Shown here: piece after piece, positions 15,242-62,329 of the stretch
Layout: each line of letters begins with the position of its first letter
How positions within the stretch are numbered: position 1 is the first letter of the stretch
Assembly: GCF_019649055.1 (NCBI RefSeq)
Contig: NW_026570304.1
Coordinates: 434,001 to 498,000 of the forward strand
Direction: 5' to 3'
DNA: 64,000 nucleotides
Source: Paramacrobiotus metropolitanus
Taxonomy: Eukaryota > Tardigrada > Eutardigrada > Parachela > Macrobiotidae
Program-made: the position numbers and the translations under genes
The notes under the pieces: model-generated
What the model was told of the DNA's origin: nothing
Database searches by the model: none
What the model saw: only the letters and a program-made list of their open reading frames with translations

Positions 15242-15360
15242 CACCAAGACCAAGCTGCAATTTCAATGTAATAATGTTTATGTACATGTAACTGCCAATG
15301 TAATGTTAATGCAAATGTTAATGTAAATTTCTATTAAGTGACAATTTAAGGGAAATTTTG

Positions 15361-16800: not shown

Positions 16801-16879
16801 CTCGCGACATCAACAGAACCGATATACCATTGTTCGACCAGACTTGAAGTCCCTTTTGGGTTGTCTGCTCTTGTGCCGT

Positions 16880-16912
16880 AATAATAATAATAATTATAAT
16901 AATAATTATACC
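16880..16912. repeat. AAT-type microsatellite
   Basis: Short imperfect tract of AAT/ATT units (TAATAATAATAATAATTATAA pattern). Confidence 0.8.
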
Positions 16913-16931
16913 GGCCCCCAAAATGGAACAT

Positions 16932-31381: not shown

Positions 31382-32430
31382 ATGTCTTCCGGCAATCGGC
31401 ATTTATTCGGGAGCAGCGTCCAGCTACTAACCAGCTTCAGACTGATGTCCCGCATGTTATCCTTGTGCAAGGGCCGTCGCGACCTTTTCGGGGTGGGGGG
31501 GGGCGCTATTGTTCTCCCCGAGGGCGAAATAAAATTGCAAGCAACACTAAGAAAGCTTCAAATTCTGCTGCCTTTGTCCGCGTCATCTGCACTGGGGCCA
31601 CTTCGCGCCACTCCAGGTAGTTTCTGTTGCGCGGTACAGTATGCGAGCCACGAACGTGGGAAATCTCAATCGAATAGGCGACCAGTGGCACTGCGTCGCA
31701 GCCGTCGACGCCAGTGGCCAGATCCTTCAGGCGCCACAGGCCGGGGTCGATGGTGGATTGAAACCGTACACGCTACTTGCATCGTTGTATTCGCAATCAC
31801 CCACGCAGAGGATCTTTTCATTTGCACCTAAAACTAGCAAATATACGGTTCGCCTGCTCGTTTCTCCGCAAAATGGCTATAGTACGTCCGTCCACGAGGT
31901 TACTATAATATCACTCAACGAAGAGGCGTACTGTACTTAATTATTTTGCAATTAATCCAAACTGTGCCAACCCAGTTAACACAAACAGTCGCCTGGAGAA
32001 GAGCTGTATTTCATTGGCCGGGAAACTTATGAACCCAAAGTTCACAAAGTAACACGAGAAACGCGTTCTACTGTTTTCTCAGGCCAGCTTTCCGCTTGGG
32101 AGTGACTACGAGAACCTCAAGTACTCTGTTTTGTAACCACAGAAGAGCAATGGCTTTGGTTTAATTAGTTTTTACGGAAAAGTGTGGCCGTGCCCGCCTT
32201 CTGTTTATTGCAATATATTGGAGAACACATGTCATATAAAATGATGCGTTAACACTCGTATAACTGCAAGTCCTCACCGCACGAATGACGTTCTGCAGTG
32301 CTTCGCCATTTTCCTGCCGAAAATTTCATTGGCAGCCATTTCGAACTACCAGTCCTGTCGATCCTGGTCGCCGAGGAAGATACCCCGAACGTTCTGCAGG
32401 ACAGCGCTACTGCTGCCGACAATGTTGCTG
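31382..32430 (-). pseudogene. BTB-Kelch pseudogene (BACK and Kelch pieces only)
   Basis: Minus-strand pieces match the K genes in order. 32430-32279 is part of exon 3 (BACK: AVLQNVRGIFLGDQDRQDW, then a TAG) ending at the conserved donor GTGCG|GTGAGG. 31827 to about 31500 is the start of exon 4 after a conserved acceptor (ILCVGDCEYNDASS, then NRNYLEWREVAPVQ after a frame change). 31440-31382 is a scrap of exon 6 (SSWTLLPNKCRLPED). Exons 1, 2 and 5 and most of the propeller are missing. It lies head to head with the F3 pseudogene, the mirror image of the K1/F2 pair, so it is probably the decayed Kelch half of a duplicated gene pair. Confidence 0.8.
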
Positions 32431-32449
32431 CCGTGGTTCGAAGTGATGG

Positions 32450-32535
32450 TTAAGGTGACGTACAATGGGCGGCAAAAGTGGCTACCAGTTGAGCCGACGC
32501 TGCCGACCGGTTTTAGCGGCTTTATCGGTCGGGTC
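32450..32535 (+). promoter_or_regulatory. Conserved block upstream of F3 (cryptic exon or shared promoter)
   Basis: This segment matches 48360-48444 on the minus strand, and in both cases it sits about 0.35-0.45 kb upstream of the first recognised exon of an F gene. Conserved strings include GGCAAAAGTGGCT (GCAAAAGTGGCT in the partner), CAGTTGAGCCGAC, GACCGGTTT and AGCGGCT. Read in frame it gives TYNGRQKWLPVE against TDNGLQKWLNVE in the F2 copy, so it may be a 5' coding exon; a GT follows CCGACCG in both, but the splice phase to the next exon does not fit simply. Confidence 0.5.
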
Positions 32536-32918
32536 TACTGCAGTCATTTCACTCCGTTGTACAGTACTCGTTGAGCCGTACTGCAGTACGACTCTACGAG
32601 CGTACTGTAGCTTTGGTCGCTTCAGGCTTTGAAGCACAGAAAGGTAATAGCGTTTTAGTTCAAATTCGTATCTTGCGGTTCTTTTCCAAATTTAATTTAC
32701 TTAGGTTCCCAGTGAATATTAGTGATAGATAATTAATTCCGATTCGTGCATCATCGAGATCCGAGTATACTCTATACAGTCCTGTGGATCAGTTGCCATT
32801 TAGCACCCTAACAAACAGGTACGAGTTGGAGAATTTTTGCTGGACATCCCTGCGCGGGAATTGTGGATACCGTAAAGCGTAAAGGGCCTGCAAGCGCATC
32901 GTTTTGCTTTGATTGTAG

Positions 32919-34982
32919 GCTGCGATCCGAAGTTAGTGTTGTCAGCCATGTTTGCGGAACGGCTAAACTACGTCAATTTTATGGGCGACAACAACGTTTT
33001 CCTGCATGGCCGCGTCATGGCCGTGTCGGAGAAGGGACTCTATATCGATCTGCTGTGCCCCAATCGTCGCCGCGAACTCATTCCTATTAACCGCGTCTTT
33101 CTATCCAGTCACTCAAAATTCAGCGAATGGAGCTATGACAGAGCATTGAGGCGGAAGGCCTGGACGATGCTCCCGGTGGAAGTGTTGCGCCGTGAAAATC
33201 CCGATGGAGCGTAGCGTTAATGGCCCGGGGACCTGATTAACGAAGAAGCGTCGGGATCAGCGGATCGGCTTGGGGGCTCTACGGTGGTGGTCGTGCAGGG
33301 GAAGGATGACAGCGGTGCCATCTGGACGGACATTCTTCCCAAACACCGCGTCCGTTTTCCCGTCTGGCCAGAAGATCGCGACGAAGAGCTGCAGAAATCG
33401 GTGGTGACTTCTGCTGCGGACTGGAGAAGAACGCTTTGTCAAACGCAGTATTCCACTGCAGTTCGAGTGGCGTGCACTATCTGCGGCACTGCTGTGGCAG
33501 GAATGGCTGAAAATGGGACTGCAGACGAAGCGGGGAATAGTTTGGCGACGTGAGAAACTGACCCAGGTGATCGGTATGGGTGTCGCGGATGGACAAGTGA
33601 GCTATATTGTGGAGTTGAACGGGCGGGATGTCGGCCTTGCGCAGCGGCAAGCGGAAGACGTGGCATAGGTACTACGATCGCGTAAATGTTTAAGACGCGG
33701 GCAGCGTACAGTTCTAAGAAAAGTTGCCATGAATATTACTGACTGCATCGTGCAGTAAATGCTAGTGTTAACATTAACTGAAATTTACTGGGTTAAGTGG
33801 GGACCGTATCTTTGCTAAGTTACACTGAAATTCTTGCAGAAGACTGCTGGGTCGTTGCACAAGACATTACTTGATCGACTCCCGGGCATTCTGAGTGCTG
33901 CGAGGCCTCCTGTTGAATGTCTGCATATCAGTGGAACGACTGATGAATCCCGTGTTCTGGGTGTGGATGAGGGGCAGCCGGTCCTTTCCCACCTGGACAT
34001 CCTGACACAGACTAAGCTGCGCGCGGTGTGGCCCGCGTGGAACGCTATTCTGGACTCACCGGCTCTAATGGCCAGCATCATCATCGAGAGAACCGCTGCC
34101 AGTCAACGTTTGCCGGATGTCTAGTACACCCTCACGGCACCCATCTTCAAGTGTCTCCGCTCCTCCACCAAGTACGTGATCATGCATGAACGCGAACACC
34201 CCATACAGACGCTGAATGTCCTTCGCTTGTTGGAAATGATTCACTACGTGGGACGAACCCGTCCCGGGATCTCTCTAACGGCGTTGTATCTGGTGGGTGT
34301 TGCGAGCTTGTCTGCCGAACCGAAATGCGGATTCTTGGAGCCGGGCGAGTGCGGGGTGCACCGTCTCGTCGACGGATTCGGGGAAACGGCTTCCTTCAAA
34401 GGGTTCTTGGATGATCTGATTGCGGCGTGCCGCGGTCTTCCGTGTATTGCCGTCTTTCTGGTCCGCTGCCAATTGTGTCTGCGCTACAACGGTGCAACGC
34501 AACTGCTGCTGAACCGCGACGTCCTCTTACAGCTGAATGTCGACTTCGACAATGTGCGTCTGCCGTTGACCGGGGATTTTGCGTCCACGCTGTGGAATGC
34601 GGTGGAGACGGCGCTGTCGGCACCCAGCAATGCCGAGATGCGAGCACTGTCAAAGTGGCTGAAGTTGTTCATTGCGGAGGAGCGGAGGAGAGCCACAGGA
34701 AGGCAGTTTGTAAAGTAAGGAAATCCTCTCATGTCAAAAACACCAGTACTCTTGGACATCATTCGGAAATAGATGGTTCTTTACAATATGGATGAATTTC
34801 TTATTCCAGCGCATTTCTTGTGTTTTAGGTCCTGTGCATTACGGAAACGGCTGATCCGCGTCCGTCGTGGCAGTAACGCGGGAGAAAGTGGTGCATAAAG
34901 GCAGAAAGCCTGCACTGCAAGAAACTGTCACGTATTGCCCTGCGCTTTCTAATGCTTCTGCAAGGGGCGTAGCTGCATTAAA
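32919..34982 (+). pseudogene. F3: F-box-like pseudogene
   Basis: All three exons of an F2-type gene are present with conserved splice sites: 32919 to about 33668, 33840-34714 and 34829-34982. It keeps the N-terminal module (LHGRVMAVSEKGLYIDLLC) and the F-box-like part (VLSHLDILTQTKLRAV), but a Trp codon has become TAG at 33212-33214 with TAA two codons later, the frame changes further on in exon 1, CAG has become TAG in exon 2 (near 34122), and exon 3 has stops where F2 reads LQYRG and HRLQLH. F2 at 45722-48011 is the closest relative in the window. The spread of lesions with intact splice sites indicates a once-functional duplicate, not a retrocopy. Confidence 0.88.
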
Positions 34983-35612
34983 CCTGTTGTGTGAAACGAT
35001 TCCTAGATTCTACAATCTACAGCGGTGTTAACTTATTTTTACAGTAGCGTTTCCCCATTAAAAGTGTAATAATTCTTGTCACTCTTCTAACAGGCTTTTC
35101 TTGGTTTATTACTGGGTTCTATTTGAAACGCTTTGATCGTTTGATATGGGACAGCTGATTGGTGTTTGCGACATACGTTGAATCTGAAATGAACAGCGTA
35201 ACCGCTACGAAGTTCCAGTATCTTCATCATACACTAACTCACCTGCATTTCCGATAGCTGCATCCATTTTAACAATATAAGTGCGCTCGTAACTTACAGG
35301 AAACTTTTCAGAATTGGCATCTCTCCTGTTTAAGCGTTTACGGTACATATATCTCTGAACTCATCACTCACAGAAGAAATATTGCCGACAAAAATGATAC
35401 TGCTGATAATGGAAGCTAAGGAGACAGCAAGTGTTCTGCTACTGTCACCGCTCTAAACGGACTTGTGCCTACAAACGCCGGAAGGACCTGGATTTGCTTG
35501 GTTCAAACTCCATCAGTGTCGTTTTATTGCGGGGTAATGCTGCTTGTGTTCAGGAAACGCTTTGTGTCGGTAGGAGGCTGGATGAAGTTTATGTGCTGAA
35601 ATAATGTAATGC
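34983..35612. other. No gene recognised
   Basis: Intergenic sequence between F3 and the retroelement fragment. The last part may hold decayed upstream retroelement sequence, which I could not confirm. Confidence 0.4.
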
Positions 35613-36257
35613 GTGACACATGTCTTGTGTTTGACCAGTGCTAGTTTGAACAAGCCAATAAAAGTAATATACTGTCCATGTGCCAAGTGCAATAAACCGG
35701 TTGATGTGTATGGCTACCACGGCTTATCCTGTTCCTTCTCTGCTGGGAGACACGCACGTCACGGCGGCTTAAACAGTATTGTGTGCAGATCGCTAGTGAC
35801 GGCTGGGATCCCGGCAAGACTGGAGCCCCGGGGGACGTTCCACACTTCGGATTGTCACCCTGATGGATGCACCACTTTTGCCTGGAAACGCGGAATGTGC
35901 CTTGCATGGGATGTGACCTGCGTGGACACTGTTGCGTTGTCCCACCGAAAATCTACGTCGGCCACCGCAGGCTCCGCTGCCGCGCAAGCCGAGAACAAGA
36001 AAGTGCGCTTGTAGGCGTATCTAAATGGCAGATACGTTTTCGTACCACTAGCCTTCGAAACACTTGGCCCATGGGGAAAGTCAGCTATCTTATTGGTGAA
36101 AGAAACCGGCAAGCGACTGCAACTTCATACGGGTGACCCTCGCTCTCATGAGTTCCTTCGTCAACGGCTGTCGCTGGAGATTCAGCGTAGTAACGCCGCT
36201 TCCGTACTCGGTACAATGGAGGGAGCAACAGCGTTAAACGAGATTTTATTACTGTGA
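35613..36257 (+). mobile_element. LINE-type reverse-transcriptase C-terminal fragment
   Basis: The frame matches, from memory of the family, the conserved C-terminal region found after the polymerase domain in many invertebrate non-LTR retroelement proteins: a CxxC-type start, then YGYHGLSCSFSAGRHARHGG, AGIPARLEP, PDGC, LAWDVTCVDTVALSH, and after a TAG at 36012-36014 in the same frame, RYVFVPLAFETLGPWG and LSLEIQRSNAASVLGTM to a TGA at 36255-36257. The single in-frame stop is the only clear lesion seen here. No fingers/palm catalytic motif is present upstream, so this is a 5'-truncated or eroded copy, as LINE insertions often are. Confidence 0.8.
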
Positions 36258-36764
36258 TTTACTGTTTTTGTTCTATGTTCGGTGTATCGTACCCGTATTT
36301 TATGAAATAAACAACCGATAATAGATGATATACTGTCCGAGTCAGTAAGCATTGGCTATGATTTTAATTTTGCGACGCTGATCGTCATGTTGTTGAAGTC
36401 TCGTTTCTTGCTTAGCTTTCTGTTACATTTTGCACCGAACCGAGTTCAACGCACAGCGATCATTAATGTTTGCAATAATAAAAACCTGCCTACCGACGAT
36501 CATCGAGAAAAAAAAATCCCACTTCGCAATTCACATCAGAAATGCCACAGAAAGATCTCGGAACTTAAGGGCTAGCCAAGGATAGCAACTGCGGACGAGA
36601 CCATTCCCCAACGTCACGCAGTCAAGAAAACGAAATGTACGTGTGCGGATCAAGAAACAGACGCAGGACTGAAAGTCAACTCCTGGTACGCGTGTGCATC
36701 AGCCCGGCTTGAAGACGAAGATGTGGTGTCATGGAGTTGAAGGGCTTGCGCTCCGCTTGCGGTG
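36258..36764. other. Intergenic, downstream of K4
   Basis: No gene seen. It holds the presumed 3' flank of K4 (minus strand). Confidence 0.45.
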
Positions 36765-39700
36765 TCATTGCTTCCCATTCCAATGCCGTCGCTTCCGCTT
36801 CCTCTCGTTCTCCCTTGGTCGCTTCATCTTCATGACAACACAAGCCATGCCAGATTTGCCCTCCGGCAGTCGGCAGTTCTTCGGAAGCAGCGTCCAGCTG
36901 TCCGTCTCATCATCATACACTTCGATGGTGCCATAACTGTCCCATTCCTCTACATCCCCTCCAATGACGTACAGCTTCCCGTCCAGGTAAGCGCATCCGG
37001 GACTAGAGCGACTCCTGATCAGATCCGCTGCAATAATATCAAATTGGGTTTCGGATAAACCTTAGTTTTAGTGCCAATCACAGTAGAAACAGTTCCACAT
37101 ATTACAGCGGAACGACACCAACCTTTCCTTATCCACTGACCACTGGCAGGGTTATACGCATCCACGCGCACAAACCGATTCACATTAGTGATACTACATC
37201 CACCTAAGGAATTCATCACAAAAACTGGGAATTAATATTCATTATTACTGTATAAAAAATTGCGCCTTATGATGTTCTGTCCATATGCTCGCCGTAGTAC
37301 GCTGCCTGTAAACGTACATGTGCCTTGAGTTCAACCGCTTCTATTACAAAACGGCAACCATTCATTTCATTATTAAAACCGAAACACGCAGAAGATTCTC
37401 AAAATTTTCCAAAACAATTATCCAATACGGTATTATTTCTTTTTAAAGGATCTGGTTCCTGTAATTTTATATTAACAGCCGCAATACTGTAATCATACGA
37501 AGTGTTCAAGTACAAATTATCCCCGCTCACGTACTACACGCGTACCGAAAACGAAAATCAGTCCGCCTGCTCCCACGCAGGCAACACAGCCGTCGATGTC
37601 AGCCGGCATGTCGAGCAGTCTCGTCCATGCATCTGCTTTTGGGTCGTACGAGAAAACCGGATTGTAAACTTCCGCGCTTTCCCCGCCGAACACGAACAAG
37701 CGACCGTCACAAGCCACCAATGCAAATCCCGCCAACTCAACCGGTAGCGGAGCGACTGCACTCCAGGTATCGCTTTGCGGGTCAAAGACTTCCACGGACG
37801 TCAACGAACTGAAGTCCATAGGTCCTTGGTTAAGAGCACAGCCACCGACGGCGTAAGTGCGACCATTCAGCACGGCAAGCGTTGTGTCCGTGCGCGGTGT
37901 CTGCATGGGAGCCAGCTCGCGCCACTCGTCAAAGAGATCCAAGTAGTGGCTGCCGCGTCGTACGGTTTTCATGCCTTTAAAATGGGAAATCAGAATGGAA
38001 GTGGTGTCCAGACATGCTGCGCTGCAGCCACCAGGCGGGATGTCCAGATCCTTCAGGGGCCACACGGCGGGCACCGATGGGCTGAAAACGAATGTGGTGC
38101 CTACATCCCTGTAGTCGTCGCAACCGCCCACGCAGAGGATCACTTCCTGCGCACCTGAAACCCACAACAAAATAACGAAACGCATCAGGTGGGAAGTGGA
38201 ATGCCAACAGGAGTCTACAGTTTATGAGCAAAAAGGACGAAGAATTTCCCATAATGATTTTGCAATTAAACAAGATCGTACACAATCAAATCGACGAGTA
38301 CACCACAATCAATCGGATCATCCACTGATTAAGCGAACTAAATTTCATGAGCCGGAAAATGCGCACCCTGACACGAGCATCGCATTCTAAATTCTGATGG
38401 GATTTTTAAACAGGTAGCGCTACAGAGTGGAGCTTTACGTACATTCCCTCTTGACCCGAGAAGCTTGACACGAGAAGAGAGATACTGGTTGATTTTTTAA
38501 CGTTTAAATTTCAAATCGAATGGAGTGTGACCCGAATGGCACTCTTTTAGTTTGATAGCTATTCCGTATTACAATACTGTAAATTCTGCATTCATTAATA
38601 CAGCCGCGTGGTGATTGGTCCTTACCGCACGAATGGCGTTTCACAGTGCTCTGCGCTTCCCCGGCGGGCACTCCGTTGGCATCCATTACGGACAGGTAAT
38701 CGTATCGATACTGTTCGCTGAGAAAGGGAACACGGACATTCTGTAGAACACTTGGCAGATGCGCCAGTCTCCCCGGATCATGGTCATGGTCCAACCAGCG
38801 CACCACCGCCTGCCATACTTGATCTTCGCTGAACACTTCTACTTCATCCGAGGCGATCAGCGCCGTCAGCTGCAAACAAACTGACTGTATGAATCCAAAT
38901 TGAAGCATTTCATCATTATAACTGGCTTGCTTGATCACTGCCGTATAAAAAATTATACTCGTAGTCGTGGAATAAGGCGCAACGCAAGTTTAAGGCAAAT
39001 AGTTTCGACCGCTTTCGAAATATGCATTCGAATAAATAATTTTAAATTAAAAGGATGCACTTTTAACATTCGTTTTTGACATTTTTTTCTGCAACGAAGG
39101 GAAATACTAAAAGTTATTACCTTATTGGCATTGCAAAAATTGTCCATTATACTTTGCTAAATCGACATTTAATTCGATTTCTCCTCTAACAGTTATTAGA
39201 TATTATTTAAAAACTTGATTTTCTACTTCAAAAAGTTTTAAATACTTGAAACCCGGTTTGGCTTTGCATTAACTCGAGTTGAACGCGTCTGAAGTGTTGA
39301 CCGTTTGTTAAACGGTGTCAGGAAGTGAAACTGTCACTTCCTGACACCCCACCAATGCACACGCAATGTTCTGAACCGTGTAAGACTATAGTCCGTTCTC
39401 AGTTACACCCAGCAGTCAGCACCTGTTGCGCGTCCATCTGCAGAAATTCCTGGCTCTGCGCCACGCGCACGAAGTGTGGAAGGATCAGTTCCAGAGCTGC
39501 GTTCGCCAGACGGTCGTTGTGGCACTGCGAAGCCAGAGCGTGGACGGCCAGGCAGTTGGACAGGCACAGGCGCTGCTCCACGTACTCCCAGCACAGTCGG
39601 ACCACTCGAGTCATCTGCAGGAACTGCGCCGCAATCACAATGGGCCCCACGTTGTCATCGCTCAGGTCCAGATCCAGGGTATACGCATACTGGATCAACC

Positions 39701-40175
39701 TGAAGGATCATTAAGCGATTACTTCACAATACACATTTTTGAAAGACGACCAGATAATATGATGCGAAATCTCGTGGTAGCATCAGCGCATCAATGAAGG
39801 AGCAAAACAGGTGTTTCATGCAGAGTGCAATGCTCGAACACTATACATCACACCTCTCGTTGCAGCATGTTTCTTTCCCTATGGTTTGTTACACAGTGCC
39901 ACTCACTCGTTCAACGTACGGCTGTCGATGTTCTGCAAGTGGTATTCAGGTTGTGAAGAGTCCTTCCAGTCCTGACAGAAAGCTGCCCGAAAGTACAGGC
40001 TGTGCGCGGTGAGAACATTGCGATGGCAGGGAATGCCCACCGCGGATTCCTCGCTGCCCAGCAGTACAACATCGCACAGGCTCCCCGTCAACTGCAGATC
40101 ACGTAGTTCGCGGAGAAACTCCACAGCCAGGCACTCGTGATGAGGCTGCTCGGGACGACTTTGGGGCTTCGACAT
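36765..40175 (-). CDS. K4: intact BTB-BACK-Kelch protein, 580 aa
   Basis: Six exons join without a stop: 40175-39907, 39699-39423, 38869-38626, 38154-37546, 37203-37123 and 37027-36765 (1743 nt). The start at MSKPQSRPEQPHH parallels those of K2 and K3; an upstream in-frame ATG exists but gives an unusual extension. Exons 1-2 encode the BTB domain (SLCDVVLLGSEES, CHRNVLTAHSLYFRAAF), exons 2-3 the BACK domain (LSNCLAVHALASQ, EDQVWQAVVRWLDHD), exons 4-6 six Kelch repeats with GG pairs and spaced Tyr/Trp (ILCVGG, LFVFGG, LYVIGG, DSWTLLP). Such proteins recruit substrates to CUL3 ubiquitin ligases in the cytoplasm or nucleus. Unlike K1-K3, it ends in a basic tail (RPRENERKRKRRHWNGKQ) resembling a nuclear localisation signal. 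The substrate is unknown. Confidence 0.88.
39314..39348. repeat. Perfect 15-bp inverted repeat in K4 intron 2
   Basis: GGTGTCAGGAAGTGA (39314-39328) and its exact complement (39334-39348) are separated by 5 nt, forming a tight hairpin inside the intron between K4 exons 2 and 3. Confidence 0.85.
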
Positions 40176-41112
40176 AATACTGAGGACGACACGGGGTGGT
40201 CCAAACAACGATAATGGATAGGAGGCGTTCAGGGACAAATCGCAAACAGTTCTTAGCTGCAACTGCAGCTCTTCGTCGACGAGAGCGACGCGATGACGAC
40301 GACGCGTCGTAATTCTAGTTATTCCAGTAAAGTGTACTCGTACACAAAATACAGTACGTAACTGCACTGAGTACCATTTACGTGCTGCAGCTGCGCTGCG
40401 ATAAAGAAGTGCTACAGCCGCACATGTGTGGCGGTGTCTGCACTTATTTCGCTGTAGTGGCTCGCGTGGTGTGTCTTTAGTGCTTTCGTCATCGGTTGTT
40501 TATAACGCAGAAAATTTAAAAACGCGTGAACCGATTTTAGAAATTTCAGGTTCTCTGGAAAGAGCAAACTTTCCTGAATTTACATTCAGGCAGAAACGTC
40601 CGGCTGCGAATTTACAGTCAGGCAAGGTCGAAAAAGCAGAAAAAACTGAGTTCCCACTTCTGCTGGTTGCAGCGTCAAGAATTACGCGCAAACTGGCGCA
40701 CGGTAAGTCGGTAAATACTGTAAGCAAACAGACTGTACATGCCGGTCAAAGGAATTCTTCATGGGGGATGGGAACATACCCGGAAGTAAAACTGCACGCC
40801 GGGAGCATCGTTATTTTTATGAGCAAAGTAGCCAAAGAAATACCGAATTTTATTTTTCAATATTTCCTTCGAGTATAGTTTTTATTTTTATTTAGCGGTT
40901 AACAACTGTACTGTACAGTGTGCATACACTACGTAACCCTGCATTTTTGTTTTTATGAAAGTCTTTTCAGTACAGTACATTAAGAATGAGCGGTACGGTA
41001 CTGTATGCCGTCATTGCTGTGTAAGTGAATTGTACAGCGTACCGCTTACTTGCGTTGCGGGTCTAGCTTTAAAGTGCAATCTTGTACTTGTAGCTAGTAC
41101 TGTACTGAGTAC
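40176..41112. other. Intergenic between divergent K4 and K5
   Basis: Presumed K4 promoter region. A 150-codon plus-strand frame (40426-40878) has no recognisable motif and is not called. GTAC-containing strings are dense near 40900-41110. Confidence 0.4.
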
Positions 41113-41286
41113 AGTACTGTAGCGGCTCGATCAAGTGGCACCACAGAGTTGGTGTACGGGAAAACCGCACACACGCAGCGTGTGCATGCTCATGCGCTTT
41201 GCAAGCACGAGTAATGCACACTTTGCAAGTGCTGATTTCCCGTACACAGACTCTGTGGTGCCACTTGATCGAGCCGCTACAGTACT
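41113..41286. mobile_element. 174-bp inverted-repeat element (MITE-like)
   Basis: The arms run from AGTACTGTAGCGGCTCGATC inward for about 48 bp and are near-perfect reverse complements (GAGTTGG on the left against the complement of GAGTCTG on the right). The core of about 75 bp is non-coding. AGTACT stands at both outer ends; being a palindrome it could be either part of the arms or a 6-bp target duplication. Confidence 0.8.
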
Positions 41287-41414
41287 AGGCTACCAGCTAC
41301 AAGTACATTGTAAATTTGTACGTAAGTAGTGCGTACGTACAGACGGTACGAGTACAGTCGATAGCAGCTTCATTTTCGTTACCAGTGAGTAGTTATTGCA
41401 CTACTCCTTTTTAT

Positions 41415-41747
41415 TCTTTACAGTTTCTCGACCATCTAGTGTCATCCTCAGTCCGCTGTCGCAGTCCAGCAGTTGTGCCGACCAGCCTTCTGACGTGCGC
41501 CTGGCTCTGAAGTTTCTCCGCGAACTACGTGATCTTTAGTTGAAGGGGAGCTTGTGCGGTGTTGTTCTGCAGCGAGGATTCGGCGGTGGGCATTCCCGGC
41601 CATCGCAATGTTATCACCGCCCACAGCCTGTACTTTCGGGCCGTCTTCTGTCAGGGCTGGCAAGACTCCACACAACCGAAATTCCGGCTGCAGAACATCG
41701 ACACTCGTACGCTGGATGGCCATTACCAGTTAAATATAATTCTATAA
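41415..41747 (+). pseudogene. K5: BTB exon fragment related to K4
   Basis: The sequence matches K4 exon 1: FLRELRDL, then TAG, LKGSLCGVVL, a frame change, then SEDSAVGIPGHRNVITAHS, YFRAVFCQGWQDS and LQNIDTRTL. The donor after RTL is lost, and no BACK or Kelch exon follows. Because it carries K4-specific residues (SAVGIP, TAHSLYFRA), it derives from a K4-type gene. It lies divergently from K4, with the 174-bp inverted-repeat element between them. Confidence 0.85.
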
Positions 41748-41749
41748 CA

Positions 41750-44700
41750 AATTCGTCGTCCTCTCTGAGGCTTGCTCGGCAATGCTTGCAAATCACGCGG
41801 TCGCGACAGGACATCACACTGGAATAGAGTCCCACAGTATCGTTACAATAAGCCACCAACCTGCGAAAAAAGCTGCCATCCACATGTAGGAAGTGTCGCC
41901 ATCATCTTTACATTCAGTTTACACTTTACAGTACATATGCTTTCTACAATTTCTTAGGTTATTCTACAATTTGCTTGACATTCTCCAGCGCATAACCGGC
42001 GAGCGTGCAGCTCCTAATTATCATAACTTCACGAACAAAAATGCATTCAACCAAAACTGATTAAAACTACCGGTACCCAAAACTTCTAGGCGAACTTTAT
42101 ATTTGTTTCATCGTATGTAAGGAATATTTCCGGTACGCAAACTACTACAGCTGTATCATGCGGTAACTGTATTTATGAAGATGCTTTTCTGTAATGCAAC
42201 AACAGCAGATTAAAGGTTCCATCGCTGGAAACCGATAACTGAATATCGTAAACAAATAATGTTACCGGTGAAATGCGAGGCAAGTTGGCTTGCATGCCAA
42301 CTGCCTAAGAGAACAAACAGGAGATGGAATTTAAAACGCAACGGTGTTTGTACGTTGTTTGTACGCAACGTTGTTTGTTGGCCAAAGACCGCCGGGTTCG
42401 AAGTGGAAACTCGTCATACGGAGCAACAGCGTGGCGTGCTCAATCCCCGACGTGGAGTCAGTGAGCAGAGGTAGCGGGGTGGAACTCCTTCGCCTGACCG
42501 CTCCACAAAAATTATTCGGCATTGATCGGACCATGGAACAGGCGAAACTCAGGGTGAGATATTCGTAAGAGCAGGCTGAGCAGCCGGATCAAACGACAGT
42601 TCATCCGCCTTGGCAGCGCACTTACGTTTTTAATTACTGCATTTTCCATCAGGGATTATGTAATAATTTGAATACGCTTCTGTAATTGAAGGTTACAATT
42701 ACTATGCTGAAAAAAAAGGTAAAATCATTACTCACAGAACCAAATATCCGATTGTTAATTTTTTGGATATTAAAATTCTGGATGGGAGACTCATGCACAT
42801 TATTCGATGCATTTGTTGATAAGAAAATTAATTTGAAAAAAAGTTTGACGTCAAGTTTTCTATCAAATGCAAAACATAAGAAAAATGCAAAAGCGTAATA
42901 ACGAAACTGACAACTTATTTAACCGAAATCCTGTGCTAATTGATATGACATTATTTTTGTATGCACATTACCGCAAATGGTTCTGCAATAGCCCACACAC
43001 TACGCCCGTCGCCCACCAACTTGCAACGCATCCGCAAACCACATGACCGTTAAATAAATCGAATACTCACAAGAAAGCTGCGGCGAAAAATAATGCATAT
43101 TTAAATTTTTTTAATATTATCACATGTAAACGAACGCTGGCACTTACTGACCGGCGATGCGAATGGCGGTCCGATTGTAGACTTCGGTGCCAAATCTGCG
43201 TACTTTTACTTTACATCTGGTGCTTTCTTGCAAAGTTAATTGAAATTATTGAAATTCAAAAATTATTTTCTGTACTAAAATTTCGTCAGCGTAAATAGAA
43301 AAAACGAGAAGTTTAAAAATATGGAAATTCGTTCGAACGCTCGTAAAGGTCGCTTAATTTTCTTCGGCTGAAATGGAATAAAGAAAGACCGGCAAGTGCT
43401 TCTAAAGTTTGTTACTTGTTACGAAGAAACTACGATTAAAACAAGTAAAAATATAAGCCTAATAATAGTTGACATATTTATTCTTGTAATGATAAGACAC
43501 AAAAATTTGAGATGTCAAAAATTTGATATTTCTGCAATATTTACTGTACTCTGTGTGTTTGGTATCTACTCGACCGAAACGAAGAGAAGGTCCTCTATGT
43601 TAGAGAATACGGGATTTTTGTCGGCCACGTCCTTCACGCAGAAAACTTAAAAAAAACTTGTTCAAAATTTGTTAAATTTATTTCGTTTTAAAAAATATGT
43701 ATTGTGAAATGTAATTTTTTAAAATATTTTTTTTTAAAAATCAATAATACTTTCCGGCGTCAATATATAGTATCTACTATGTGATAAATCCGGCTGCAAG
43801 CAAAGACTGATTCCAAAAATGGATTCAAAAAATATTAAATACCGTCTCAACTTGAATATTATCAGAGTTCTGCAAAACAACTGCTGAACATTTTCAAGCA
43901 ATAATGTGATAACACACCGGGAGCGTGATGGAAAACGTAGTACAGTGACCATAATTGGGTCTTAACAATCGAGAGCTGGCAGTTCGTTCCTCGGCAATTA
44001 AATCTCAAATTGAGGAAGCTGCATTTTTTACGCAGCATTGCACGAATGCTAATAAATGATCATAGTTTTTGCAGTAAAAAAGGGTAAAGATATGTCTTTT
44101 GCAAACATATCAGTGATTTGTCATTTTTGAATGTTTAAGTTTTAACTTACAAGTAGTGTACCGGCGCCTGCAATCATTGGTATCTTGGCGGATATTGCTC
44201 ATTAAAGTGTAATTTGTCATTAAATACAAGGGATAAAAATAGGCATTTAAATAAGTAGGCATTTAAAACAGAATTTTGTTTCAAAAGACACGTAAATCAG
44301 AAAAATTGCTTGTACAAACGGTCGCTTTTATCGGAATCTTCCGGGCGCTCAGTTATCTTGCTATGCGGCCGGAACATAGTGACCCGGAAATAGTCCTGAA
44401 GTTTGCGAATCAAATTCGCAACTTGTGAAAAACATCCGTATTGTTCTTGATTTTATTTACTCATCCCCTTTTGTGAATCTTACTTAACTGGTGTTCGTAG
44501 TGTGAAATAATCTGGGACTTACAGCCAATAAAAATTACCAGCAAAATTACAGATATCGTTTACACTCTAAACAGAATTTTCACGTTTAGCTGCTCCAGTG
44601 CGGTCTGCGAATGCGCAACAATGTGCATTTTCCTATTTATTTGTCATTACAGTACAGTAATATTAATTTTGTAAATACAGTGCAGCCCCAGCTGCAGAAA

Positions 44701-45720
44701 AAAGTAAAACTTTATGCTTATCTGTAGAAGTAGTCGGATTCATTGCTAAGTTGACAGGCAAATTAAGCGGACATAACGCCTCAAATGCAAAGGTTCAGTA
44801 CTTTGAAAGCAAACCGGAATGTTTGGATTTCCCTAGCATTAAAACATCAATTGTAATTTGTTTCCGTTTTTTTTCAGATTTTAAAATTAATTCCAAAGTA
44901 ACTAAAATAAAAGTAAAAGTTGAAATAAATTCATAAATGTTTGGACTTCTTCAACGGTTGGACCGCGCCTATGTTACACCGGCACCACAAAAACTGACTG
45001 ATTTTTTGTAGCAGGAAAACGATCAACTTTATTCTGTCGGTACACGCCTTCCCGACAACCGGACAACGTTCGCAATACTCTGGCTAGAAAAAAACTAATT
45101 TATAAATAAGCTTCTTGCTTTAAACTAAAAATCTAGGCTCAGCAGTCGATAGTGCTGTCTGTACACATCGTACGTATCCGCAATTTCGTGTACAGCATAT
45201 GAAACGGCATTTTGTTGGGTCTCTTTTTGCGGTCTCTGCATGACCGAACCGCAGCAGGGTACTTACCCAAGAGCAGCTCAATTTCGGTCACTTAGCTAGT
45301 TGGCAATAAACTTTTATGTAACAGCATCAGATGTACAAATGTACAGCATTCGCAAGTCACCAGCAAAACTGTGTGGATCAACCTTCCGCTAGTAAAAAAG
45401 ACGGCCGTCAATCTGACTATTTTTTACCTGTACCAGTGTGTGTATTCGCTAGCGAGGGATTTTGACGAGCTGACATGTACAAATTCCTTTGTACCAGAAC
45501 TTGTAACGACACTGCAAGGTCACCCACCATCTTTTAATCTTGTCACGACACTTCGGCAGTACTGTCCCATATGACAAACTATCAGGCATTTAAACTGAAC
45601 CAAACCAATCTGCTAGAAAAGCGACAAGAATTATTACGCTTATAACGAGGAAATGCTATTGTAAAATCAAGCAAACGCCGCTGTAGAGTGTAGAATAATG
45701 GAATCGTATCACGCAACAGG
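41750..45720. other. Gene-poor stretch of about 4 kb
   Basis: No gene called. One item: a minus-strand micro-exon-like segment at about 43148-43235, with CKVKVRRFGTEVYNRTAIRI running into GGTCA|GTAAGTGCC, has good composition and a good donor but no identified partner exons. Elsewhere only AT-rich frames. Confidence 0.4.
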
Positions 45721-45721
45721 T

Positions 45722-48011
45722 TTAATGCAGCTGCAAACGGTGCAGAAGCATAAGAAAGTGCAGGGCAATACGGGATAGTTTCTTGCAGTACAGGTTGTCT
45801 CCTTTCGTGCACCATTTTCTCCCACGGTACTGCAACGACGGACGCGGATCAGCCGTCTGCGTCAGGCACAACACCTACAACACAAGAAATCCAAAATAGA
45901 AATTAATCTGGATCCACTTTACACAGAACCCTGTATTACCAAATGATATGTACACAGAGTACTTATGTTATTTTAACATGAGTGGATTCCCTTACTTTAC
46001 AAACTGCCATCCGGTGGCTCTCCTCCGCCACGAACTTCTTCAGCCACTTTGACAGCGCACGTATCTCGGCCTTGCTGGGTCCCGACAGCGCCGCCTCCAC
46101 CGCATTCCACAGCGTGGACGCGAAATCCCCGCTCAGCGGCAGACGCACCTGGTCAAAGTTGACATCCAGCTGTAGGGCGCCATCCCAGTTCTGCAGGAGT
46201 TCCGCAAAACCTTCGTAGCGCAGACGCACCCGGGAGCGGACCAGATGCAGGGCCACACACGGAAGACCGCGACGCGCTGCAATCAGATCATCCATGAACC
46301 CTTTGAAATTAGCCGGTTTCCCGAATCCGTCGACGAGACGGTGCACCCCGCACTGGTCCGGCTCCTCGAAACCGCAATGCGGTTCGGCCATCAAGTTCAT
46401 TACACCGACCAGATACAACGCCGTCAGAGAAATCCCGGGGCGGGTCCGCCCCACGTAGTGAATCATTTCTAACATGCGAAGGACATCCAGCATTTGGACC
46501 GCATGTTCGCGATCATGGATGATCACGTGCTTGGTGAAGGAGCACAGACACGTGAAGATGGGTGCTGCGAGGATGTACTGGACATCCGAAAGACGCTGAC
46601 TGGCAGCGGTCGCCTCGATGACGATGCTGGCCATCAGAGCCGGCGAGTCCAGAATGGCGTTCCACGCGGGGCACACCGCGCGCAGCTTGGTCTGCGTCAG
46701 GATGTCCAGGTGGGAGAGAACATGCTGCCACTCATCCACGCCCAGAACACAGGATCCCTCAGTCGCTCCGCTGATATGCAGACATTCAAAAGGAAGTTTC
46801 GGCTCATTCAGAAAGCCCGGGAGACGATCAAGCAGCGCCTTGTACAGGGCTCGAACAATTTTCTGCAAAGATTGTCTTCAAGTTAGCAATGAGAGGCACA
46901 CGACAAAAACCCATTGAAATGAGTAAAGCACGAATAATTAAGACGGAAAAGAAAATTTGAAAAACATATGGCTACAGAGTGCGGATACACAGTTTAGTAA
47001 CGTAGCCGAGCTACGTCAGCATTTTCAATGCAAAAAGTGGAGAACACACTGATACTCTGATAGGCTGGATACTACCTTAGCTCTTCTTATCGATATAAAA
47101 TGCTTAAAAATATCTGAAAGTGAATGCAAGTTTGATTCGCCAGATATAAGAAGTCCGCAGACCCATGAAGGTTTGCTTCTCCATGAAAAGCCAATCTACT
47201 GCAATGATGCAGTCGACGGCATCAAAAGTCATGGCAGATTTTCTCATGGCTCTACGCTATGATTCTGGAGTTCGTCGTACCTTTGCCTTGGGAACACCGT
47301 CATCACTGTTCAGCTCCACAATGAAATGCACGAGCTCATCCGCAACGTCGATGCCGACCACCTGGTCAGGTCTGTCACGTCGCCAAACAATTTCTCGCTT
47401 AGTTTCCAGTTCCTTTATCATCCATTCCTGCCACAGCTGCGCTGCAGATACCTCGCGCCACTCCAACGGTAGCGGAATACTGCGCTTGACAAAGCATCCT
47501 GGTCCAGTGCGCATCAGGTGCGTCATCACCGCCTGTGGCAGCTTCCCGTCGCGATCTTCTCGCCAGCTGGGAAAACGGACGCGGTGCTTGGGGAGAATGT
47601 CCGTCCAGATGGCGCCGCTGTCCCCCCGCCCCTGCACGACCGCCACCGTGCATTCCCCATACCGTTCTGCTGATCCCGACTCTCCTGGATTAACCAGCAT
47701 CCCGGGCCACCAACGCCACGCTTCACCGGGATGTTCCCGGCGCAACACTTCCACTGGGAGCGTCGTCCAGGCATTCCGCCTTAAAACTTTACCGTAGCTC
47801 CATTCGTTGAATTCTAAGTGATTGGATAGGAAGGCGCGGTTAAAGGGGATGAGTTCGCGACGACGGTTGGGGCACAGTAGATCGATGTAGAGCCCGTCCT
47901 CCGCCACGTCCATTACGCGACCGTGCAGGAGGACATTGTTGTCGCCCACAACGTTAATGTAGTTTAAACGTTCCGCAAACATGGCTGACAGCACTGATCT
48001 TTGATCGCAGC
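45722..48011 (-). CDS. F2: intact F-box-like protein with GLYIDL module, about 573 aa
   Basis: Exons 48011-47281, 46862-45996 and 45874-45722 join in phase 0 through donors AAG|GTACGA and AAA|GTAAGG and acceptors CTTTGCAG and GTGTTGTAG. The first in-frame ATG in exon 1 is at 47982 (MFAERLNYINVVG), giving 573 aa; the exon begins at an acceptor with two extra bases, so a 5' exon probably exists, perhaps at 48360-48444. Residues about 19-47 (LHGRVMDVAEDGLYIDLLC, RRRELIPF) are the unnamed module shared with F1. Residues about 276-318 (WQHVLSHLDILTQTKLRAVC, AWNAILDSPAL) fit an F-box, pointing to SKP1/CUL1 recruitment. The rest, including MLEMIHYVGRTRPGISLTAL, is unrecognised. It is divergently transcribed from K1 across about 0.65 kb, and F3, F4 and F5 are broken relatives. 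Confidence 0.82.
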
Positions 48012-48359
48012 CTACAAGCAAAGCAAAACAATGCGCTGGCAGGCACTTTACGGTTTACAGTATCCACAAATCACGATTCACGCGCAACGATGTTCATCAA
48101 AGATTTTCCATACTCGATACCTGATTCTTAGGGTGCTACAATGCACAACAAGGATGGTACAGGGATATACTGCAATCTCGATGGTGCAAAAATCGGAGTT
48201 AATATCTGTCAAGGATTCACTGTGAACGTGAGCAAATTAATCAGAAATCAGAAAAGAGAAGCCCAAGTGTATCTGAAGTAAAACGCCATATTTTCTACTG
48301 CTTACACGTTGCAGTGACCAAAGCAGTTAGTACGACTGCACCTGCAAAAATGACTTAAC

Positions 48360-48444
48360 GCCCGGCCGATGTAGCCGCTCAAACCGGTCGGCTCAACTGG
48401 TCCCGTTCGACGTTCAGCCACTTTTGCAGTCCATTGTCCGTCAT
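48360..48444 (-). promoter_or_regulatory. Conserved block between F2 and K1
   Basis: Counterpart of 32450-32535. On the minus strand it begins ATGACGGACAATGGACTGC and could encode MTDNGLQKWLNVERDQLSRP up to a CCG|GTTTGA donor, but this donor is in phase 0 while F2 exon 1 needs phase 1. It is either a 5' exon of F2 with an unseen intermediate exon, or part of a bidirectional promoter for F2 and K1. Confidence 0.45.
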
Positions 48445-48675
48445 CTCATTGGCTCCCCCATTTTGGCTTTTTTCATTCAGCTTTTCTAGTTTTCTTTCTT
48501 TTTTCTAAATTTATCTATCTCCGGGTGAATTAGTGCTCGAGAATTATCATTCTGATTAGTTTGCGAACGAATCAAGTGTGCTTACTAATTACTTTCCTGA
48601 CTGCCCGCATTGCCATTCGAATAGTTTATCGTACAGAACTTACAGTTCTCTGACTATCAGTTTCTAGCCGTTGTA

Positions 48676-51178
48676 ATGTATCCCTCCGTACTTTCCTTCT
48701 ACAAGGATAAGCCGAGCAGTTCCGCGCATCACCGACTTCCGCAGGACTGCCCCGCTAACACTGTGGAGTTCCTGCGTGGAATGCGTGATCTGCAAGAAGC
48801 GGGCACTTTCTGCGACGTTGTACTGAAAGGCAGTGACGCGTCTTCGCAGGGTATTCCTTGTCATCGTAGCGTGCTCACCGTGCAGAGTCCGTATTTCCGC
48901 GCTGCCTTCACGCACAACTGGAAAGAATCCTCTGCACCAGTTTTCCGGCTGGCAAACATCGACAACAGCACGTTGAAGGAGTAAGTCTCGTGACAGCGTA
49001 GCACAGTGGTAATTCAGCAAACCTACGTTTGCGATCAGTTGTAGCGCTCCAGGGAATTTACAACCTGGCAATGCTAATCATAAATGTTATATCTGCATGT
49101 TAACCAAAGATCTGGAGATTTCAGTTTTGCTCTTTCGCTTTTGCATGAGTCGGCGTCACTGATAATGTTTGTAAATTGATGCAGCGTATGTTATTAGCAG
49201 TCATTCGGTGATCAGACTTGATTCCCTGTAGATTGGTGACGTATGCGTACACGATGGACCTGCGCTTGAGCGATGACAACGTGGTGCCCATCTTGATTGC
49301 GGCGCAGTTTCTGCAGATGACTCCGGCGGCCCGTCTGTGCTGGAAGTACGTGAAGGAGCGCCTGTGCCTGTCCACATGCCTGGACATCCACGCGCTGGCT
49401 TCGCATCACAGCAATCCGAGCCTGGCCAACGCAGCTCTGCACGTGATCCATCCGAACTTCCTAACCGTGGCGCAGACAAAGGAATTTCTCCTGGCGGATG
49501 CGCAGCAGGTGCTCGGTCTAATTATTGAACTGTTTCAAGAATGCTATTTAAAGGTCATCCTCATTCAGCCACTGAAATTATGAGAAAGTTACTACATTTA
49601 CAACAAGACAATGTCTTCACTTATTCTTACATTTGGTATGCGCTTAGTTAATTTGTTTGCAGCTGGCGGCGCTGATCGCATCTGATAAAGTGGAGGTCTT
49701 CAATGAGGACCAAGTGTGGGAGGCGGTGAAGCGCTGGCAGGACCACGACCGTCCCGGACGTATGGCGCACCTGGCCGCTGTCCTGCAGAATGTCCGCGCT
49801 GCCTTCCTCAGCGACGAGTATCGCAAGGACTGGCAGTCCGCCTATGGACTGCATGTCGGGGATGGGCAGAACACTGCGCCACGCCATTCATACAGTAAGG
49901 ACCTAGCAGCTGCATTTATTATGTTGTACGATTTAACTTAGTTGCAAAAATTTAATCAATAGCCAGTTTTTGTCGTGTGGTTTGTAGCCCTGGCATTTGC
50001 ATTCCACGTTGTCATATTGGTTTGCTGGTTTCAGAGGCGAAGGACGTGATCCTTTGCGTGGGCGGTTGCGAAGTCGACTATGACGACTACACAGCTCCCG
50101 TCACATGCTCCGTGTACGCCTTCAGTCCGTCGATCCCGGCCGTGTGGCGCCTGAAGGATCTGCCCGCTTTCGGCGAAGGCTGCCACGCCGTGCTGCTGGA
50201 CGCGGCTACAATTCTCATTCTACACCGTGATGGCATGCATACCGTGCGACGCAGCAGTCGCTACCTGGGTCTCCGTAACGAGTGGCGCAATGTGGTCCCA
50301 ATGCGGACACAGCGCCGGGAGGCAGCGCTTGCCGAGCTGAATGGCCGGATTTATGTCGCCAGTCAAGAGGATAAGGATCCATTGACGCCCGTGGAAGCCT
50401 TCGACCCGAAAAGTAGCTCCTGGTTCGAGGTCGCATCCATTCCCATTGCTCTTAACGGCTTTGCCATGGTGGCATGTGACGGTCGACTGTTCGTGCTGGG
50501 CGGAGACAGCCACGAAGAAGAATCTGGCAGATACGTCTTCTCCTACGACCCCGGGGCAGATCATTGGACTCGACTGCGCGATATGCCGACCGAATGCAGC
50601 TGCATCGTTGCCTGTGTGGGTGCTGGCGGATTGATTTTCGTTTTCGGTACGTGTTCACCGTTGTGTCGTTCAGTGACAAACTGCATGGTATTGTAAAAAT
50701 TGATTGGAGATAGTGATTTTTATGGTGTACGGTGCAGGTGGAGATGATAGTGCTGAACGGTGTGTGCGCGTGGACGCTTATGACCCCACCTCCGACCAGT
50801 GGGTCAGAAAAGGTAGGTGCCGTTCTGTTGCACATTTTTAATAATGCGTGGCGGTATACGGCGACAAACTTGTACTCCAGTTCTCCTCAAATTAGAGCTA
50901 CTTTCAACGAGAAAGCCGAATTATACTCGTAGTTCATTTACCACGATATTATTGCAGCGGATATGATCAGGGAACGTCTTTATCCTGGATGCGCGTACCT
51001 GGATGGAAAGCTGTACGCCGTTGGAGGAGATCGATGGGTGAAAAATGGCTATTACAGCATCGAGGTATACGATGATGAGACGGACAGCTGGACGCTGCTT
51101 CCGAAGAAATGCCGATTGCCGGAGAACGCGTATAACTTTGACTGTGTAGTCATGAAGATGAAGCCTGAGTTTGACTGA
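48676..51178 (+). CDS. K1: intact BTB-BACK-Kelch protein, 573 aa
   Basis: Six exons, 48676-48980, 49232-49508, 49663-49894, 50035-50646, 50738-50812 and 50958-51178, total 1722 nt with no stop. Residues about 28-145 are the BTB domain (TFCDVVLKGSDAS, CHRSVLTVQSPYFRAAF, LVTYAYTMDLRLSDDN), about 146-270 the BACK domain (EDQVWEAVKRWQDHD, LQNVRAAFLSDEY), and about 272-573 six Kelch repeats (DVILCVGG, LFVLGG, LIFVFGG, LYAVGG). The length is normal for KLHL-type CUL3 adaptors. The third Kelch unit has IYVASQED in place of the GG pair, so one blade may be weak. Splice sites are canonical. The start MYPSVLSFYK differs from the M(S/P)(Q/K)PSS starts of K2 and K3. It shares an intergenic region with divergent F2, suggesting co-regulation of two ligase adaptors (inference). 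Confidence 0.9.
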
Positions 51179-51694
51179 TTTTCATTTTCCGGTTTCCGAT
51201 TACTTTCGTTTAAATTACAGTATGAAATTAGGATTTTGTCTTATCCGTTGATGGCGTACTTTTTATACTTTTCTAGGATGTTTTGATCTTTTCGGATATT
51301 CGATGTGAACGGTCAAGTACCGTATTATTAGTTTTTTTGAGGCGATCTCTGGTAATGGTTTTGCTTGCGAAATGGTGTACAGATACTGGTTAAAATGACG
51401 GTGCGCTGAGCCGGGCTCTGTGCGAGAAGAAACCAAAACCTAAGCGAAACGGAGAACGTTCCAGGCTCCAGCACAACACCCGCAAACATATTCTGATTTT
51501 TTCTTCGAACACGGTTTTACGAGCAGTATCAGGTAGTTTTACCGTATTTCGATTGAATCCGTCACTGTATGAGTGTTACTACGGAGTCTACGGCTACTGG
51601 ATCACTCGATAGGATGCTAGATCGACGGACTAGTAACAAACGGTTAGCTTAACCGCAAAGTAAAAGCTCGATCGGTATCGTAAAGGTGTCACGA

Positions 51695-52340
51695 ACTTGA
51701 TTGCGGAACTGGATTGCGGCGACGACTAATTCCAACCGGACTAGTGCAAGGTGCACCGTCTCGGCGACGGATTTGGGGAATCGGCTACTTTCAGTGGGTA
51801 CTTGGATGATCTGATCGCAGCTTGCCGTGTGTGGCCATCCGTCTGGTCCGCTGCCGAGTGCGTCTGTGCTACGCCGGTTTTACGGAGCCGCTGCAGAGCT
51901 CGGACGTCTCCTTGCAGATGGATATTGTCATGCCCATGGCCCGTCGGCCGTTGAGCGCGATTTCGCGTCCACGATGTGGAATGCGGTTGACGACCCGAAG
52001 TAACGATATACGAGCACTGTCAGATTGGTTGAAGGCGCTCGCGCCGGATAGGAAGCCGAGAGTAGGGTGTTCGAAAAGTAAGCGACTCAGTTATTCATAA
52101 TCCGCTATCTGTAAGTAATTTGGGTAAATGCGGTTTTATCGGCGTGCTGTATTTGAACGGGTTTCTGGTTTGGTACTCTAGGTGTTATGCTTGACGAAGA
52201 TGGTTGATCCGCGTCCGTCGTTGCCGCACGGCGGGTAAGAGTGGTGCGGAGATAGACTGCAGGATCTGCGCTGCGAGAAATTCTCCCGTAATGCACTGCG
52301 CGTTTTTCAACTTCCGTTCAAGGAACAGCTGCGTTTCTGA
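51695..52340 (+). pseudogene. F4: truncated F-box-like pseudogene
   Basis: Only the 3' half of exon 2 (from the part matching CGVHRLVDGFGKPANFKG in F2) and exon 3 remain. Exon 2 shows frame changes and ends at the conserved donor AAAA|GTAAGC (52077); exon 3 starts after a good acceptor (TACTCTAG, 52181) and reads VLCLTKMVDPRPSLP before a TAA. The F-box and the GLYIDL module are missing. It lies between K1 and K2 on the plus strand, probably a leftover of the duplication that made the K array. Confidence 0.82.
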
Positions 52341-53074: not shown

Positions 53075-53300
53075 TGCAATGCTACAGCTTTTGTTTCTTA
53101 CTTCAGAATTTAATTACTGTACTTCACAGCAGGTCGATGCTAGAGAGCTATCATTCTTATTAACTTGTGGCCCAGTAAGTGTGATTGCTTACAAAGTTAC
53201 AGTAACGTTCCTGACTGCCAGCTGTGTCAATCACTAATTCCAGTTCCCTGACCATTGGTTTATAGCTGCTGGATAGTTTTCCCTCCTGATTTCCTGCACC

Positions 53301-56919: not shown

Positions 56920-57096
56920 GCTTCATCTTCGTGCATCGGGCAATCAAGCAGCGTCCAACTGTCTGTCTCGTCATCGTACACTTCGATGCTGGCCTGACCC
57001 TTCCTCTTCCGCCCACCGCCTCCGATGACATACAGGTATGCCGCTTCCCATTGAGGTATGCGCAGCCGAAGAAGCCATGATCTCTGACCAAACTGC
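56920..57096 (-). pseudogene. K6: Kelch exon-6 fragment
   Basis: After a conserved acceptor (GTTATTGCAG) the minus strand reads FFGCAYLNGK, then after a frame change YLYVIGGGG and ASIEVYDDETDSWTLL, the last Kelch repeat of the K family, followed by MHEDEARP in place of the usual VVMKMK end. No other K exon is adjacent; its upstream neighbour on the same strand is an F-family fragment, so the two were brought together by rearrangement. Confidence 0.82.
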
Positions 57097-57224
57097 CTGC
57101 AATAACATATACAGACAACGAATGTCATGTCATAGATTTGGGTTGTACGCAATACAGACACCGTCAGACAGACAGCCAGCCGGTACGCAATACCGCCACA
57201 ATGGAAGCGACGCCCCGGCGCAGC

Positions 57225-57355
57225 GTGCTGGGCAATGAAGCTCGCGACACCGCCCAGGTACAACGCCGTCAGAGAGATCCCGGGACGGGTTCGTCTCACG
57301 TAATGAATCATTTTCAACATACGAAGGACATTCAGCATCTGTATGGGGTGTGAGC
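57225..57355 (-). pseudogene. F5: F-box-family exon-2 fragment
   Basis: The minus-strand frame reads MLNVLRMLKMIHYVRRTRPG and ISLTALYLGGV, matching F2 exon 2 (MLDVLRMLEMIHYVGRTRPG). The match covers only about 45 residues from the middle of the family; no F-box or splice site is included. Confidence 0.82.
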
Positions 57356-58913: not shown

Positions 58914-59138
58914 GAATTTACAACTTTTCTTTCTTGTTGCGACATTTAATTTCTTCACAGCAGGTCAGTGCTGGCGAATCTGGTAATTTTGGTAATTTGT
59001 GCTTTGAATAAGCTTATTTGCAAATTGCAACTAATTTTCTGACTCCTACTTCTGTAATCACTGGATACAGAACTTGCAGTTCATTTGACTATCAGTTTGT
59101 AGCTGTTTGATAATTTTTCACTCCTGATTTCTTGCATC

Positions 59139-62100: not shown

Positions 62101-62329
62101 TTTGCGATTTGTTATTGCAGCGGATCTGATCAGGGAGCGCGTTAACCCCGGATGCGCGTACCTGAATGGGAAGCTGTACGTTATTGGAAGGGACCGATGG
62201 GTAGAGGATGGATACTGCAGCATCGAAGTGTACGATCATGAGACGGACAGCTGGACGCTGCAGGAATGCCAAATACCGGAGAGCGAGTACGGCTTCGATT
62301 GTGTGGTCATGAAAATGAAACCCGGCTGA
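59139..62329 (+). CDS. K3: BTB-BACK-Kelch protein, 558 aa, open in all exons
   Basis: Exons 59139-59422, 59678-59954, 60372-60612, 60945-61544, 61735-61800 and 62121-62329 join to 1677 nt with no stop. The start is MPKPSSNTAADPQ. BTB residues (IFCDVVLKGSDES, CHRSVLSVQSPYFRAAF), BACK residues (LSNCLDVHALASQ, EDQVWETVMRWLDHD) and Kelch motifs (DVILCVGG, IYVSGG, LFVLGG) are present, consistent with a CUL3 ligase adaptor. Two weak points: exon 5 must start at a CAAG acceptor with little pyrimidine tract, and the join reads FVIEDAKRF, without the GG pair of the fifth Kelch repeat; the sixth repeat has LYVIGRDRW in place of GG. The gene may be active with a relaxed propeller or at the start of decay. 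Confidence 0.83.

Follow-up and report, generated by a model that had tools for sequence, protein, structure and literature searches.

Proteins that join a BTB domain to Kelch repeats carry substrates to CUL3, and F-box proteins carry substrates to SKP1-CUL1. In KLHL-type proteins such as KEAP1, KLHL3, KLHL12, and KBTBD2, a BTB domain, a BACK domain, and Kelch repeats are found together. In nematodes and plants, F-box families are described as having expanded through gain as well as loss (PMC8665587 for Caenorhabditis), and the lineage-specific Caenorhabditis expansions comprise proteins with one F-box, many clustered copies, pseudogenes, and fast divergence. A divergent arrangement that includes an F-box gene is known from the head-to-head pair ICK/FBX9, for which PMC2876993 reports correlated expression. 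Here we describe a 64,000-nucleotide stretch of the tardigrade Paramacrobiotus metropolitanus (contig NW_026570304.1, positions 434,001 to 498,000; the window), in which an F-box gene, F2, and a BTB-BACK-Kelch gene, K1, also lie head to head; the families to which they belong are called F and K below. The partner of the F-box gene differs from that in ICK/FBX9, and F2/K1 are known here from sequence alone. A first-pass annotation had raised the idea that F2 and K1 might represent a linked, co-inherited pair of adaptors with a joint meaning. Our results instead argue, with high confidence, that one juxtaposition of an F and a K gene was copied within an unstable cluster, through local birth-and-death duplication of two ligase-adaptor families.

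The F2/K1 pair consists of the following elements.

45963-47982, minus strand: F2, intact two-exon F-box gene, 533 amino acids
47983-48675: spacer between F2 and K1, common in whole or in part to the three other pairs described below
48676-51178, plus strand: K1, intact six-exon BTB-BACK-Kelch gene, 573 amino acids

The divergent layout that had been annotated was confirmed, with both genes intact and a gap of 693 bp between their ATGs. The coding sequence of F2 (47982-47281 joined to 46862-45963 on the minus strand) contains no stop or frameshift, and the exons of K1 are at 48676-48980, 49232-49508, 49663-49894, 50035-50646, 50738-50812, and 50958-51178 on the plus strand. The annotated gene identities were borne out by Pfam searches, which detected domains in both products. 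K1 displays the order BTB (residues 38-144; 6e-21), BACK (residues 151-250; 1.9e-22), and Kelch (Kelch_1, 4.4e-33; best stretches within residues 394-569), as do the KLHL-type proteins. Its best natural relative among solved structures is KEAP1 (7.3e-46), with a designed Kelch protein scoring higher. Unlike the KLHL-type proteins used for comparison, K1 sits in a large clustered set within its genome, as seen from the best 150 of 990 candidates for Kelch and the best 150 of 1036 for BTB. The F-box of F2 (PF00646, residues 279-309, 21.6 bits with the cut-off at 20.5) is a marginal match when taken alone but becomes firmer at the level of the family, as 9 of 10 scanned members match PF00646 in the corresponding exon (exon B), with E values of up to 0.1.

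A search of the genome (169,799,020 bases) with F2 and K1 brought to four the number of F/K pairs that are divergent and have this spacer. The first-pass annotation had recognized two of them; both are present, and its count was too low. We designate the pairs A (K5/F3), B (F2/K1), C (FC/KC, on C84, the contig of the window), and D (FD/KD, on the contig C111). Pair A is composed as follows.

31388-32408, minus strand: K5, K-gene remnant retaining parts of exons 3-4 plus 38 bp from the last exon
32453-32947: pair A spacer, homologous to 47983-48240 and 48361-48446
32948-34744, plus strand: F3, F pseudogene with three stops and two frameshifts

An inverted K/F copy had been annotated at 31382-34982, and it is indeed there, with both sides dead. 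The remnants of K5 exons 3-4 (32408-31566) contain one frameshift, the last-exon piece occupies 31425-31388, and the BTB exon of K5 was not found at this locus. The conserved intergenic block described in the annotation was also recovered, as two spacer blocks matching between pairs A and B (47983-48240 to 32947-32692, 76.8% identity; 48361-48446 to 32533-32453, 75.6% identity). Pair C, at 515-520 kb of C84, is divergent, with two frameshifts in FC and one in KC. Pair D, at 346-356 kb of C111, is divergent as well, with one stop and one frameshift in FD, and its K side consists of exon 1 only, with one frameshift; no further K sequence was found in the 5.6 kb following the pair D stretch. Frames are thus broken in three of the four pairs (A, C, and D), and pair B is the single pair in which both are open. 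As the spacer sequence is common to all four pairs, F and K were most likely brought together a single time, with copying thereafter.

Two insertions interrupt the spacer of pair D. Of these, the larger one (3.7 kb, at 3144-6845 of C111:346500-356499) has 15-bp inverted ends, an 8-bp target repeat, and transposase-like frames; on our own reading of the sequence rather than on a database match, it would fit a hAT transposon. The second (about 1.9 kb, at 6910-8854 of the same segment) has inverted ends of about 120 bp that are about 72% alike, and is possibly a non-autonomous element.

If F2 and K1 formed a co-regulated module, with one bidirectional promoter, a CUL1 adaptor and a CUL3 adaptor on the same pathway, and linkage kept by selection, then the short divergent spacer, its presence in four divergent copies, and the intactness of both genes of pair B would be understandable. 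We consider this unlikely. The search with F2 gave 112 exon-level matches (the best 81 of 1269 candidates) and that with K1 gave 106 (the best 76 of 775 candidates), both lower bounds. Grouped by script, the F matches represent at least 61 loci, with 5 on C84, 4 on C111, and 52 elsewhere (19 on the contig C8). Among the matches listed, F and K occur at 50 kb or less from each other only on C84 and C111. The upstream regions outside these two contigs were covered by 45 windows of 2.7-5.4 kb for 46 F genes and by windows at 15 K loci; K1-like sequence was present in none of the 45, of which one shows no F match itself, and F2-like sequence in none of the 15, which mostly do not include K loci known by later exons alone. 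Six more F loci outside C84 and C111 were left out of the windows, each with another F about 2.5 kb or less upstream by coordinates. The queries in this test were K1 and F2 only, so that other adaptors (e.g., MATH-BTB) would escape it. No BTB match was seen by eye within 10 kb of an F locus among the best 150 of 1036, a set that does not include the K1 BTB exon itself. F/K pairing therefore does not recur at independent loci within this scope, and since the checked members of both families are unpaired, the arrangement looks like local duplication and not like a working two-adaptor unit. Several of the upstream windows hold another F or another K, giving head-to-head F/F or K/K neighbors, which indicates that inverted duplication is common within each family. 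In the C84/C111 cluster, F and K are also found tail to tail (F3/K4; F4 with a K tail; K/F at C111:320-328 kb) and in tandem (K1 with the F fragment at 51643; C111:415-420 kb).

The F gene of pair C provides further evidence against a unit that is inherited together. FC is a chimera with a sharp junction at C84:516802/516803, inside an F coding exon. Its left part is 94.3% identical to an F on C111 (327 kb), and its right part is 86.1% identical to F2/K1. In a DNA tree of exon B, FC clusters with the F from C111:327 kb (support 100/100), apart from F2, FD, F3, and F4 (99/99), and FD groups with F3 and F4 (97/96), away from F2. In pair C, the F2/K1 block is thus fused to the body of another F, and pair D likewise seems mosaic. 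In a tree of F 5' ends, F2, FD, FC, and F3 fall together (96/92), with F2 next to FD (86/84); in a tree of K exon 1, which does not include K5 because no exon 1 is found there, K1, KD, and KC form one group (100/99), with K1 next to KD (100/98). The F bodies of pairs C and D fall in other F groups, and because the body of FC belongs to another F lineage, the F and K trees disagree there. The first-pass annotation had called for a comparison of F and K trees, and had named unpaired families and discordant trees as results that would reduce its pairs to a local coincidence. This is largely what we observed, both in the missing pairing elsewhere and in the F bodies, even if at their 5' ends the F genes still agree with K exon 1.

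The remaining F and K sequences in this part of the window are as follows.

22617-24443, minus strand: F1, distant F relative with 33% identity to F2 and three stops in the spliced alignment
36822-40187, minus strand: K4, K gene with no stops or frameshifts and no divergent F partner
41396-41714, plus strand: K exon 1 fragment with a stop and a frameshift
51643-52094, plus strand: F fragment (residues 378-529) in tandem behind K1
53286-55615, plus strand: K2, broken K gene with five frameshifts and one stop
56946-57068, minus strand: K last-exon fragment
57195-57353, minus strand: F fragment (residues 353-398), divergent to K3 and 1.8 kb away from its start
59124-62323, plus strand: K3, K gene with no stops or frameshifts and a 97.9% identical copy on C111

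Neither K3 nor K4 has an intact F partner, yet the frames of both are open; this speaks against a module, as do the broken frames in most pairs and the swapped F body of pair C. By eye, K1 and K3 can be seen to have a hydrophobic-x-E sequence, WKE, in their BTB domains, where K4 has WKD; the motif pertains to the predicted binding of CUL3. The F fragment at 57195-57353 adjoins the K last-exon fragment on the same strand. No K1 match was found between F1 and 31.5 kb. Two dispersed repeats with many genome copies are present at 14011-14304 and 14668-15232 of the window. Searches of the genome for the arthropod cuticle family PF00379 and for nematode SL1 RNA (RF00198) yielded no match; since the controls yielded none either, these negatives carry little weight.

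Conservation around the spacer bears on the module from both sides. Between pairs B and C, identity is 0.89 in the spacer, 0.91 in K exon 1, and 0.91 in K intron 1, and it declines through the K gene to 0.82 in exon 2, 0.76 in exon 4, and 0.50-0.71 in introns 2-5, the pattern expected of a copied or converted tract. Between pairs B and D, it is high in the spacer (0.93-0.98), F exon A (0.94), K exon 1 (0.92), and K intron 1 (0.88, measured to where D breaks off), and lower in exon B (0.84), the F intron (0.79), and the F 3' flank (0.72). Between pairs B and A, the spacer declines with distance from the F gene (0.84 over the first 125 bp, then 0.71 and 0.63); outside the spacer, the values are 0.83 for exon B, 0.78 for exon A, 0.77 for the 3' flank, and 0.56 for the F intron (220 gapped columns), and the synonymous identity of F2 and F3 in exon B is about 0.74 (proportion of synonymous differences, 0.256). 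Parts of the spacer match at other fetched loci: 50 bp at the F start of F4, the K-proximal end at K3 and at the K of C111:400 kb, and, weakly, K2. No F was found in the 4.8 kb upstream of the C111:400 kb K.

Several observations weigh against the copying of a single juxtaposition as the whole explanation. Identity peaks around the F start, the spacer, and the K start, and the spacer is preserved to about the same degree as the adjoining exons and to a greater degree than the F intron; a constrained shared promoter could yield the same peak. Within pairs B, C, and D, the grouping seen for the F 5' ends is also that of K exon 1. KC has just one frameshift, which might stem from an assembly error, and it is possible that the F fragment at 57195-57353 together with K3 is the relic of a fifth pair. 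Lastly, the ratio of nonsynonymous to synonymous substitution rates (dN/dS) of F2 against the broken or truncated FD, F3, and F4 is 0.48-0.58, hardly above that against four open paralogues on C8 and C367 (0.34-0.56). The peak at the spacer and F start, seen in the B-A and B-D comparisons, is the one result that would fit co-function of F2 and K1. A recently copied or converted tract centered on this region accounts for it, given that identity in the noncoding K intron 1 comes close to that of the spacer, which in B-C does no better than this intron, and that the F body of pair D falls in another group; such a tract explains the peak as well as a shared promoter would. A variant in which a two-ligase module arose a single time in this lineage, with a bidirectional promoter shared by F2 and K1 as CUL1 and CUL3 adaptors of one pathway, a spacer that forms the conserved core of the block, duplicates that failed in the other copies, and a partner swap under the same promoter in pair C, appears to us improbable.

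The substitution ratios also bear on the idea that F2 and K1 make up a selfish or antagonistic element, resembling a toxin and its antidote, with one gene acting against the other. Ubiquitin-ligase adaptors are said to be among the known antidotes, and an element of this kind would be consistent with the tight linkage of the partners, their fast turnover, and the decay of both. Both proteins nevertheless look like ordinary adaptors with dN/dS below 1, and both families are present unpaired in many copies, so that we regard this idea as very remote. For K1, dN/dS is 0.37-0.40 in comparisons with K3, K4, and KC (the latter over the 374 codons that precede the frameshift). Given the small contrast between broken and open copies, constraint on F2 is weakly shown; judged from the substitution patterns, the genes are likely under moderate constraint.

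The number of true copies depends in part on what C111 represents. It is conceivable, though we lean against it, that the assembly has retained C111 as a divergent haplotype of C84, in which case some of the four pairs would be alleles and true copies would be fewer. The near identity of K3 to the K at C111:320375-323731, the 94.3% match of FC to the F at C111:327 kb, and the same order of these genes favor this, but pair D, whose genes are broken, matches pair B at about 89-90%, and positions 14001-17000 of the window have no C111 match among the best 40 of 566 candidates, which are mostly repeats. The K3 copy on C111 is either a recent segmental copy or a leftover haplotype. If C111 is a haplotype, the pair count is lower, and the module is not rescued.

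The F family resembles the lineage-specific F-box expansions of Caenorhabditis in its single F-box, its numerous clustered copies, its pseudogenes, and its fast divergence, and it also has features of its own. Across its loci, the N-terminal region of about 230 residues contains strongly kept motifs, and, unlike in the Caenorhabditis F-box proteins, it has no good Pfam match. Searched as a single sequence, the F2 region gave no firm match to Pfam, and when the family was searched member by member, 1 of 13 such regions matched Agenet (E of 0.0043); the family profile gave no firm match to solved structures (best E of 0.13). An exon B profile reached F-box/LRR protein 3 at an E of no better than 0.26, with two unrelated chains ranking ahead of it. 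No paper joining tardigrade, kelch, and F-box was found in our literature search.

Copying of one juxtaposition would thus involve the following events, in what is most likely their order. The F and K families would expand independently, and on one occasion an F and a K in this cluster would have come to be arranged head to head. The block would then have been multiplied into pairs A to D by segmental copying, inversion, and unequal recombination, with most copies breaking. K1 and F2 most likely function separately, K1 as a predicted CUL3 substrate adaptor through its BTB-BACK region and Kelch propeller, and F2 as a predicted SKP1-CUL1 adaptor whose other regions would bind substrates. A new mechanism is not needed for the pairing. 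Our results show two ubiquitin-ligase adaptor families, both large in this tardigrade genome, that are intermixed in a cluster breeding chimeras and pseudogenes.

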